The notes below the pieces were generated by a model. That model was not told where the DNA came from and did not search any database. It saw nothing but the letters and a program-made list of their open reading frames with translations. A DNA stretch of 48,192 nucleotides from an uncultured Bacteroidales bacterium (GTDB lineage: Bacteria > Bacteroidota > Bacteroidia > Bacteroidales > UBA932), in NCBI GenBank assembly GCA_947167855.1, contig CAMVJR010000005.1:1-48192 (forward strand), written 5' to 3'. Below, one piece after another: positions 834-7,404 of the stretch (positions are counted from its first letter, which is position 1; every line of letters begins with the position of its first letter). A program made the translations under genes and the position numbers.

Positions 834-2251
834 GAAACAGTAAGTTAGTGACCCTGGAAGAGGCCATCAAGCGTTCCGGCCTCCAGAATGGAATGACCAT
901 CAGCTTCCACCACCATTTCCGTGGCGGTGACAAGGTGGTGAATATGGTAGTGGACAAGCTCGCAGAGATGGGCTTCAAAGACCTCAAGCTGGCTGCCTCC
1001 AGCCTTTCGGACGTACACGCCCCGCTCATTGACCACATCAAGAACGGCGTGATCACCGGTATCTCCACTTCCGGTCTGCGCGGTGCCCTGGCCGATGCCA
1101 TCTCCCACGGCCTTCTCAAAGAGCCCGTGGTGTTCCGCTCGCACGGCGGACGCGGCAGCGCCATCGCCAACGGAGAGCTCAAGATTGACGTGGCTTTCCT
1201 GGGTGCTTCTTCGGCCGATGAACTGGGCAACGCCTGCGGCTATTCCCGCTCCGAGAATGCCAAATCCATCTGCGGCTCGCTGGGTTATGCCCTGCCCGAT
1301 GCCCGCTACGCCAAGCACGTGGTGGTAATCACGGACGACCTGGTGGAATATCCCAACATGCCCATGTCCATCTCTGCGGCCGACGTAGAGTCCGTCGTGG
1401 TGGTGGACAGCGTAGGTGACAGCTCCAAGATTGCCGCCGGCGCCATCCGCGACTCCAAGAACCCCCGCGATATTCTGCTGGCCAAGCAGGCCGCCAAGGT
1501 CATCATCAACTCCGGTCTCTTTGTAGACGGCTTCTCCATCCAGACCGGTACCGGCGGTGCTTCCCTGGCTGCCGTCAAGTACATCCGCGAGGAAATGATC
1601 AACCGCGGCATCAAGGCTTCCTTCGCCCTGGGCGGTATCACGGCCCACATGGTCAAGCTCCACGAAGAAGGCCTCATTGGCAAGCTCATTGACGTCCAGT
1701 CCTTCGATAAGGTAGCGGCCGAATCCATCAAGAACGACCCTACCCACCAGGAAGTATCGGCCGTGGAGTATGCCTCCGGCCAGCACCTGGGATCTGCTAC
1801 CCACGCTCTGGATATCGTGATCCTGAGCGCCCTGGAAGTGGATACGGACTTCAACGTGAATGTTCTGGTTGGTTCTGACGGTATTATCCGTGGCGCCATT
1901 GGCGGTCACCAGGATACCGCAGCCGATAGCGCCCTCAGCATCATCGTGTGCCCGCTCCTGCGCGGCCGCATCCCTTGCGTGGTGCCGCACGTAACCACTC
2001 TCATTACTCCCGGCAAGTCCGTGGACGTGGTGGTGACCGAGTACGGTATCGCCGTCAATCCGGGCCGTCCGGAGATTGCAGAAAAGCTCAAGGCTGCCGG
2101 TCTCAATATCGTGGATATCAAGGATCTGGCCGCCAAGGCTTCTTCCATCATCGGCAAGCCCGATGCCCTGCCTTTCGGAGACAAGGTGGTAGGTATTGTG
2201 ATGAACCGTGACGGTTCTGTCCTGGATAAAATCTACAATATCGTGGAATAA
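830..2251 (+). CDS. citF: citrate lyase alpha subunit (citrate CoA-transferase)
   Basis: CitF-like N-terminus SFHHHFRGGDKVVN and full-length 473 aa; start overlaps the citE stop. Confidence 0.95.
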   Translation: MRNSKLVTLEEAIKRSGLQNGMTISFHHHFRGGDKVVNMVVDKLAEMGFKDLKLAASSLSDVHAPLIDHIKNGVITGISTSGLRGALADAISHGLLKEPVVFRSHGGRGSAIANGELKIDVAFLGASSADELGNACGYSRSENAKSICGSLGYALPDARYAKHVVVITDDLVEYPNMPMSISAADVESVVVVDSVGDSSKIAAGAIRDSKNPRDILLAKQAAKVIINSGLFVDGFSIQTGTGGASLAAVKYIREEMINRGIKASFALGGITAHMVKLHEEGLIGKLIDVQSFDKVAAESIKNDPTHQEVSAVEYASGQHLGSATHALDIVILSALEVDTDFNVNVLVGSDGIIRGAIGGHQDTAADSALSIIVCPLLRGRIPCVVPHVTTLITPGKSVDVVVTEYGIAVNPGRPEIAEKLKAAGLNIVDIKDLAAKASSIIGKPDALPFGDKVVGIVMNRDGSVLDKIYNIVE

Positions 2252-2922
2252 TGCCCGTCACCCTGGAGCAATTGCTGCAAAGCCGGGACAACCGTGCAAA
2301 GCATCAGAAGGACCTGCTGGGAGAATACCCTGGCAGGTCCCTCCTTTGCATGACGGTGCAATTGCCGGGGCCGGAAAAAAGGAACCGGACGTCACTGGCC
2401 ATTGCCAAGGCCGGTGTACAGGCCATCCGGGAGGCGTTTGAGCCCACGTACGAAGAGCTTAAGGACCTGGAGACCGGATACGAAGCCTATTTCCTGGTAG
2501 ATCTACCTGCTTTAGAAACCAAGAAAAGGGCCTGCCAGATAGAAGACACCCACCCTTTGGGCCGATTGATGGACATCGATGTCCTTACCCTACCGGTCTC
2601 AGAAAATTATTTTTCGGAAGGCTTTCCGAAAAACCAATTTTCCGAGACCTCCACAAATCCACCCTCCCGACCGGTTTCAGGAAATTATTTTTCGCAAGGC
2701 TTTGCGAAAAACCAATTTCCCGAAACCTCCACAAGGCCTGCGCGCGTAGACACTGTCAGTCGTTTAGACATTGGTCTGGAGGCCAGGAGGTGTCTGCTGT
2801 GTGATAATGAGGTACGGTATTGTATGCGTGCTAAGTTGCATACAAAAGAAGAGTTATTGAGTCGAATTGAACAAATGCTTAAGGAATATGAGCTACAAGC
2901 CCCTAACCCCCGAACAGATTGA
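2251..2922 (+). CDS. citX: CitX, apo-citrate lyase phosphoribosyl-dephospho-CoA transferase, with an internal repeat-encoded insertion
   Basis: LLQSRDNRAKHQ, HPLGRLMDIDVLT, RRCLLCDNEVRYCMRAKLHT motifs match CitX; roughly 50 aa of extra sequence between DIDVLT and RRCLLC. Confidence 0.9.
   Translation: MPVTLEQLLQSRDNRAKHQKDLLGEYPGRSLLCMTVQLPGPEKRNRTSLAIAKAGVQAIREAFEPTYEELKDLETGYEAYFLVDLPALETKKRACQIEDTHPLGRLMDIDVLTLPVSENYFSEGFPKNQFSETSTNPPSRPVSGNYFSQGFAKNQFPETSTRPARVDTVSRLDIGLEARRCLLCDNEVRYCMRAKLHTKEELLSRIEQMLKEYELQAPNPRTD
2595..2727. repeat. Two 55-bp palindromic elements, 78-bp period, in frame within citX
   Basis: GGTCTCAGAAAATTATTTTTCGGAAGGCTTTCCGAAAAACCAATTTTCCGAGACC (2595-2649) and GGTTTCAGGAAATTATTTTTCGCAAGGCTTTGCGAAAAACCAATTTCCCGAAACC (2673-2727); differences are compensatory between the arms. 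Confidence 0.9.
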
Positions 2923-5700: not shown

Positions 5701-7404
5701 ATGATGCAAAGCTATAGTAAGCACAACATACAGGAACTGCCCCTAAGCAGTCAATTCTTCCGTAAAAAGGTGGAAAACTTCCTCGGAGACAATGGCCTCC
5801 GGATGGAAGATTTAGAAGTATATTGTGTGATAGAGAGTGAAGCCGGAGACATCCTGGCCGGCGCCGGTCTTTCTTCCGATATCATCAAATGCATAGCTGT
5901 CACCCCCGAAGCCCGTTCGGAGGGTTTGGTGGCACCGTTGGTGTCGCATTTGATTTCCCTGGCAGCCACCAAGGGCATTCTGGAGCTCAAGATTTTCACC
6001 AAGCCCGAGAATGAGGCCATCTTCGAAAGCCTGGGCTTCCACGTCCTGGCCCGCGCCCCCAAGGCCATCCTTATGGAAAACGGTCACGGCCTGGAAAGAT
6101 ACTGTCAGTATTTAAAGGGCTTCGCCCAGGAGGGCCGATGTGGCGTTGTAGTCATGAACGCCAACCCCTTCACCCTGGGGCACCTCTATCTCCTGCAACA
6201 AGCCTCCAGGCAGGTAGACCACCTTTACATCATTCCTGTAAAAGAAGACAAATCCCAGTTCTCTTACAATGAGAGACTGGAAATGATAAGAAAGGCCCTT
6301 CCGGTTGTGGAAAACACAACCTCCACAGCCCGACGCACCAGTGGGGAGGGGACGAATGTCTGTGTGTTAGAGGGCTCTGACTATCAGATTTCTGCGGCTA
6401 CTTTTCCTACTTATTTCTTGAAAGACTTGTCCGACGCGGCGGAAACGCAGATGCGTCTGGATCTTGACCTGTACGCCCGGTGGATCGCACCGGCCCTGAA
6501 CGCCTCCGTCCGGTTTGTAGGATCCGAACCTATGGATTCTCTGACTGCCCGGTACAACGTTCTCATGAAGGAACTTCTTCCCGAAGTCTTAGAAATTCCC
6601 AGATTCTGTCTTTCGGTTTCTCCTACCCTTCCGGTCTCATTTTCAGAGACCTCCACAGAACCTACGCACATAACTGCATCTGCAGTGAGGAAAGCGTTGG
6701 AGGAGGGGAGTTTCAAGAAGGCATCGGCCTTATGCCCTGAGTCAAGCTGGCCGTATCTGCTGGCAGAGCTGGCTCAGCGGGCGCTGCGGAAGGAGCTCGA
6801 TACGCCGGGAAAGCCTGGCCTGGTGGGCCCGGATTCCTGCGGGGCGCACAAGGACATGGATTACAGCACCATGCTCCAGGGGATTGCGGCCATTCGGCCG
6901 TTCTTCCCCAAGATGGTGCTGGCAACATCGGCCCATGCGTTGAAGCAATTGGGCATTGAGGCCGAAGAAGCCATGATGGCTGCCACCGGCGGCATCAATA
7001 CCCACCGCGGGGCTATCTTCTGCATGGGCCTGGCGCTGAACGCGCGCGGCGACAGCAAGCAGATGGCTGCTTTGGCCGAGCAGATCTGCGGAGACAATCA
7101 TTCCGTGGGCGCACGGACGATGGCCCTGAGCGGTTATCAGCAGCTGTTTGAGGAATGGCTTCCGTATTATGCTTCCGGGGCTGGGGAACTGAAGACGCTG
7201 CTGCGGATCATGAGCACGCTGGACGATACCTGCGTGGTGAAGAGGGCTGGGTTCGATAGAGCTCAGCAGGTGAAGCAGGAAGCATCAGAATTTTCTTCTG
7301 CTGTGAATGAACTGTGCGAGCGGTACGCTGCGGAGGGTATCTCTCCGGGAGGAGCGGCCGATATGTTAGCTTTGACAATTTTTATTCACTCAATCATCAT
7401 ATGA
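5701..7404 (+). CDS. citC/citG: Fusion: [citrate (pro-3S)-lyase] ligase (CitC) + triphosphoribosyl-dephospho-CoA synthase (CitG)
   Basis: N-terminal GNAT-like plus nucleotidyltransferase (VVMNANPFTLGHLYLLQQAS, EGSDYQISAATFPTYFLKD) then CitG motifs (TPGKPGLVGPDSCGAHKDMD, GGINTHRGAIF, SPGGAADMLALT) in one ORF. ORF opens at 5638; ATGs at 5701/5704 are plausible starts. Confidence 0.88.
   Translation: MMQSYSKHNIQELPLSSQFFRKKVENFLGDNGLRMEDLEVYCVIESEAGDILAGAGLSSDIIKCIAVTPEARSEGLVAPLVSHLISLAATKGILELKIFTKPENEAIFESLGFHVLARAPKAILMENGHGLERYCQYLKGFAQEGRCGVVVMNANPFTLGHLYLLQQASRQVDHLYIIPVKEDKSQFSYNERLEMIRKALPVVENTTSTARRTSGEGTNVCVLEGSDYQISAATFPTYFLKDLSDAAETQMRLDLDLYARWIAPALNASVRFVGSEPMDSLTARYNVLMKELLPEVLEIPRFCLSVSPTLPVSFSETSTEPTHITASAVRKALEEGSFKKASALCPESSWPYLLAELAQRALRKELDTPGKPGLVGPDSCGAHKDMDYSTMLQGIAAIRPFFPKMVLATSAHALKQLGIEAEEAMMAATGGINTHRGAIFCMGLALNARGDSKQMAALAEQICGDNHSVGARTMALSGYQQLFEEWLPYYASGAGELKTLLRIMSTLDDTCVVKRAGFDRAQQVKQEASEFSSAVNELCERYAAEGISPGGAADMLALTIFIHSIII
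6303..6321. repeat. Short member of the citX palindrome family
   Basis: ccGGTTGTG-gaaaa-CACAACCtccacag; shares the ccGG 5' edge and CCtccaca 3' flank. Confidence 0.65.
6633..6651. repeat. Short member of the citX palindrome family
   Basis: cccttccGGTCTC-attttca-GAGACCtccacagaacctacgcac; outer stem identical to citX copy 1, with the inner palindrome missing. Confidence 0.75.

Follow-up and report, generated by a model that had tools for sequence, protein, structure and literature searches.

Bacterial MITEs are small, non-autonomous, dispersed sequences with an inverted-repeat structure. The element described here has all of these properties but lacks a fixed terminal inverted repeat, its outer arms varying between copies.

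Palindromes within coding sequence are known from the Rickettsia and Wolbachia palindromic elements (RPE and WPE), dispersed repeats of ~100-150 bp that lie in ORFs, leave the frame intact, occupy sites shared among orthologues and encode a conserved peptide (PMC3767692, PMC10969869). The Bacteroidales element is likewise palindromic and dispersed within one genome, and it sits in ORFs of genes that are unrelated to each other without disturbing their frame. It differs in belonging to another phylum, in its conserved core (compared with RPE/WPE by description only), and in having nested stems of free sequence around fixed unpaired motifs. REP sequences are dispersed hairpins with a bulge that sometimes lie within ORFs (PMC3733652). 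The element is also a bulged, dispersed hairpin found partly in ORFs, and genes for REP-associated tyrosine transposases (RAYT, TnpAREP) occur in the same genus; however, it is longer and nested, the consensus of 69 copies shows neither a GTAG/GGAG-type nor a CGTC foot, and the RAYT genes whose flanks were read have other palindromes directly beside them. In subclass 2.6 of the TnpAY1 transposases of Bacteroidetes, 'atypical secondary structures' flank tnpA and also occur elsewhere in the genome (PMC6006769). The phylum is the same and our hairpins too occur elsewhere in the genome, but those of subclass 2.6 flank tnpA, whereas the RAYT-flanking hairpins seen here are other repeats.

We suggest that the element works in the manner of RPE and intragenic REPs, with RPE as its probable nearest precedent. 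It is filed apart from both because it lacks the tetranucleotide foot, any cognate RAYT is a candidate only, and RPE was compared by description. The element is a new family, distinctive in that its unpaired motifs are fixed while its stems vary freely, and set apart from RPE by description; no earlier account of it was found in the open-licence literature. It adds a large case of in-gene palindromes, independent of the earlier ones and informative about structure, from uncultured rumen and gut Bacteroidales. For the locus studied here, we consider it highly probable (about 0.85) that the two palindromes in citC are decayed copies of this genus-restricted, dispersed hairpin element, tolerated in frame within genes and shrunk by in-frame deletion.

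Palindromes in the citC-citG and citX genes

The window, a stretch of 48,192 nucleotides, is one contig (C5) of a genome of 1.99 Mb in 173 contigs that is 82% complete; all sequence data used here are metagenome assemblies. The palindromes and their host genes are listed in Table 1. The first citC palindrome reads CCGGTTGTG-GAAAA-CACAACC-TCCACAGCCCGACGCAC and the second CCGGTCTC-ATTTTCA-GAGACC-TCCACAGAACCTACGCAC.

Table 1. Palindromes of the window and the genes that contain them
Feature	Position	Strand	Basis
citX, host of two tandem copies	2251..2922	+	Pfam CitX, two matched stretches
citX copy 1, full hairpin: outer GGTCTC/GAGACC, inner hairpin, A/CC bulge	2595..2649	+	ssDNA fold z = -8.3
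citX copy 2, full element: GGTTTC/GAAACC hairpin (2673-2727) and 3' loop strand	2673..2745	+	
citC-citG fusion, host of both short copies	5701..7404	+	Pfam Citrate_ly_lig (C-terminal) and CitG; orthologue alignment
Element 1 in citC, putatively tip-deleted, GGTTGTG-GAAAA-CACAACC (arms 6303-6309/6315-6321)	6303..6321	+	Insert site 201; sequence
3' internal-loop strand of element 1, TCCACAGCCCGACGCAC	6322..6338	+	Sequence; strand conserved family-wide
Element 2 in citC, putatively tip-deleted, GGTCTC-ATTTTCA-GAGACC (arms 6633-6638/6646-6651)	6633..6651	+	Insert site 305; sequence
3' internal-loop strand of element 2, TCCACAGAACCTACGCAC	6652..6669	+	Sequence

The first-pass annotation had described two palindromes in frame within the CitC-CitG fusion, had assigned them to the family of the citX palindromes, and had placed them in loops of CitC. 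Both are present in the ORF, and they occupy the very sites at which relatives have full elements. The 3' flank said to be common to the citC and citX palindromes was found, although that of short copy 1 is one base shorter and the end of that of citX copy 1 is degenerate. Taken singly, the short hairpins have modest single-stranded DNA fold z scores (-2.2 and -3.5); the citX copies reach -8.3 and -4.8. A stem of at least 6 bp ending at the flank motif occurs five times in the loci scanned, both citC hairpins included, and not once with a reversed control motif; the other three occurrences look like chance. In the source genome, five of the six exact matches to the flank adjoin an element or a remnant, in line with the enrichment beside inverted repeats that had been expected.

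Matches to CitC-CitG were obtained in 44 of the 151 genomes of the genus, and their alignment revealed discrete insert sites near residues 201, 305, 461, 495 and 531. Sites 201 and 305, which bear out the placement in loops, are empty in many orthologues, and where an orthologue has no palindrome it has no additional residues at these sites either. Full elements occupy site 201 in G122, a reindeer MAG (L151), RUG11937 (L081) and G037, and site 305 in RUG173 (L149), RUG11937 and G005, with a reverse-oriented copy at the latter site in the reindeer MAG. At site 201 RUG173 retains the right half only, CACAACCTCCACAGG, while the window carries the hairpin bases alone at both sites. In an AlphaFold model built from nine sequences, with a mean pLDDT of only 61, both citC inserts are predicted as low-confidence coil between ordered segments. 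Orthologues of citX mostly have a short linker in place of the inserts; the window has two elements there and RUG173 two and a half.

The short hairpins measure 19 nt, compared with 55 nt for full hairpins that share their stems and lie at other places in the genome. The difference of 36 nt corresponds to 12 codons, and the reading frame is thus kept. In the simplest reading, the short citC hairpins of the window arose by deletion of the hairpin tip; given the half and full states in RUG173, we would replace the earlier view of a separate 'short form' with that of a full hairpin minus a tip of ~36 nt. Short forms are rare, so the case for tip deletion draws on the two in the window, the half copies of RUG173 and a core-less form in G125 (see below). 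The stems at site 305 differ between the window and RUG173, which may indicate a separate insertion there. With empty, full, half and apparently tip-deleted sites in one gene across species, it can be studied directly how copies insert, how a translatable frame is selected and how copies decay.

Other inserts occur in the same gene. At sites ~495 and 531, L272 (G133), L271, L282 and other orthologues carry in-frame palindromic inserts whose sequences are unrelated to the element; these are perfect inverted repeats of 18-24 bp, and MPDQVGND- and AGHDG-type repeats. Insertion of palindromes in frame looks general in this genus. In L297 (G028), the element at citC site 201 has copies of another repeat, TGTCATTCTGAGCGAAGCGAAGAATC (peptide CHSERSEES), on both sides, all in one reading frame.

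Structure and covariation of the element

The full element is ~75-110 nt long. Alignment of 69 diverse copies revealed an inner hairpin, TTTTTCG..CGAAAAA, seated on a conserved A opposite CC, followed by a variable middle stem. The middle stem has 11-14 bp and its sequence is almost free, with 91 distinct stems among 173 copies. Below it lies an asymmetric internal loop whose 3' strand is conserved. This strand is what had previously been called the flank, and its wide consensus is CTCCACAACGCCnACGCrC or CATCGCAACGCCnACGCrC. The conserved unpaired motifs are the A/CC bulge and the CTCCACAACGCCnACGC loop strand.

Pairing holds in 90.8% of cells across the 69 copies; shuffling lowers this to 76.2% and sliding to 63% or less, and 257 cells are changed on both sides against 95 in the shuffled set. 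This covariation agrees with the earlier proposal that the stems vary as pairs. A third, outermost stem of 8-14 bp is often present, with more than 20 arm sequences; at a length of at least 8 bp it is found in 27% of copies, compared with 1.7% after halves were exchanged between copies. It ends at a near-constant distance from the core, mostly 22-23 nt on the left and 31 or 33 nt on the right. We considered that the outer arms might be target hairpins into which the element had inserted, and rejected this because of the near-constant spacing and because almost no empty hairpins of this kind exist in the scanned loci. L241 (G125 C57) carries, at ~100-150, a form of the element that has the outer arms GCATCTGC/GCAGATGC but no core; it may be a further case of tip deletion.

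We tentatively suggest, at somewhat less than even odds, that the element is recognised by its shape. The A/CC bulge, the CTCCACAACGCC..CGC loop strand and the inner hairpin would be the fixed features, and the two outer stems would drift as pairs; the element would move by structure, be tolerated as translated loops in many enzymes, and depend on a mobilising enzyme of new specificity. A recognition structure defined by covariation offers a handle for seeking such an enzyme.

Reading frame, distribution and dispersal

One frame of the element, S0, reads through without a stop and encodes PVxENYFSQGFAKNQFxxTSTxPxR. In-gene copies were classified by Pfam matches and orthologue alignment, a codon score having been dropped as too strict. 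Pfam families were matched in 29 of 30 candidate host ORFs in frame S0 and in 5 of 20 in other frames. About 22 copies in S0 have domain matches on both sides, in RmlD, IGPS, ATP synthase gamma, SpoU methylase, RibF, MetH and others, whereas in other frames the element lies inside a domain in 2 of 20 ORFs. A tally made by hand, which adds citX, citC-citG, mutY, hddC and ugd by orthology and ignores shared ancestry, places ~58 of 68 in-gene copies in S0, six in the reverse frame O0, four in the reverse frame O1 and none in the remaining frames.

Read in frame O0, the usual 29-nt core has a TAA stop around the bulge. Each of the six O0 copies has AAAT/ATTT in place of AATT/AATT, so that the stop is lost while the bases still pair; the same swap occurs in just 3 of the 206 other copies (Fisher p 7e-10, some of the six sharing ancestry). 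This paired, stop-removing swap is evidence for selection on both the reading frame and the pairing. The in-gene copies bear on selfish DNA as a source of new protein segments, and they carry a warning for annotation: in such genomes, a segment of the ENYFSQGFAKNQF type is an insert.

The element was detected in 23 of the 151 sampled genomes of the genus, with 1-26 matches per positive genome among at most 27 best scored candidates, some of them reverse-strand matches to the same copy. The core is also contained in more than 117 stretches of public assemblies, nearly all of them from Bacteroidales or Bacteroidia MAGs and many from the ruminant gut. A MAG labelled Clostridia (L127) has a typical copy at a contig end, likely Bacteroidales contamination. 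Family- and order-wide samples of other genera, in which the best 10-16 candidates per genome were scored, gave no covariance-model match at E 1e-6, and the element was not matched in plasmids or phages. No Rfam family matched the element in the 11 loci searched, which returned only tRNA and sub-threshold chance matches.

A search of the source genome with one citX copy showed that mutY and a nucleotidyltransferase-HAD fusion contain full copies, and ugd a partial one. Another copy lies inside a SpoU methylase gene, and several are apparently outside genes. Across the family, copies are both intergenic and intragenic, the latter in citX, citC, citG, mutY, ugd, rmlD, atpG, trpC, SpoU and others. 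Within single genomes, copies 93-99% identical are embedded in unrelated flanks, indicating dispersal and favouring the mobile origin put forward in the first-pass annotation.

Mobilisation and alternative explanations

The family is most likely a non-autonomous mobile repeat recognised as a hairpin. Copies would land in intergenic DNA as well as in permissive loops within genes, and those in genes would survive where their translation is harmless, that is, mostly in one orientation and with a stop-free frame. Later, copies would decay by losing one half, as in RUG173, or the tip of the hairpin, in either case in frame; such loss would account for both citC hairpins. The stems would stay paired because shape, and not stem sequence, is recognised. 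Alternatively, the element may be part of the REP family proper and be moved by RAYT (TnpAREP) acting on the single-stranded hairpin, a reading that we find doubtful. RAYT-like genes occur in 110 of the 151 genomes and, from a comparison of two lists, in 22 of the 23 that have the element. A copy lies within ~210 bp of six RAYT records (five places, one being in two overlapping loci), and in one RAYT clade seven of the 12 nearest holders are positive genomes (hypergeometric p = 0.0004, without phylogenetic correction). However, loci found by searching for RAYT contained no copy except in G028, and none lies within the examined loci of the six RAYT candidates of the source genome. Other palindromes directly flank RAYTs wherever the flanks were read, and the consensus lacks a GTAG-type foot. 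On the tests of loci, proximity and co-occurrence, and given those flanking palindromes, RAYT was rejected as a clear cognate and is kept as a rival; the same tests identified no autonomous parent or transposase for the element.

The agreement between arms might also come from templated quasi-palindrome correction, with one arm copied onto the other, in place of structural selection. The very high pairing suits such a process, as do the arms at the same citX site, which differ on both sides between the window and RUG173, and the species-specific apex CAAGACTTTG common to RUG173 copies at two genes. If arms were copied in this way the A/CC bulge would tend to be lost, yet nearly all copies keep it; the stop-removing swap points to selection, and independent insertions of subfamilies explain the site differences equally well. 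We therefore consider templated correction unlikely. Far less probable is that the element is a structured regulatory RNA whose in-gene copies are accidental or misannotated. Many copies are intergenic, where they may have a role, and the covarying structure resembles a cis-acting RNA, but the element is without an Rfam match, and hosts with domain support on both sides of the insert, together with empty-site orthologues, imply true insertion into coding sequence. For the in-gene copies, this reading is largely refuted. The least probable reading is that the segments are skipped in translation or cut from the RNA, as a bypassing element or tiny intron. A strong hairpin within coding sequence would suit skipping; a frame kept through the insert, the preference for one frame and the loss of the O0 stop in six of six copies would be needless if the segment were skipped. 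Setting these alternatives beside the mobile, hairpin-recognised repeat, we favour the latter.

The genus has many divergent RAYT genes, several per genome (L185-L234, L355-L392), with flanking palindromes of their own where these were read. L299 (G028 C5) has a RAYT gene within a composite array, which is made up of CTTAAGATCGT repeats and of the element in three nearly identical copies.
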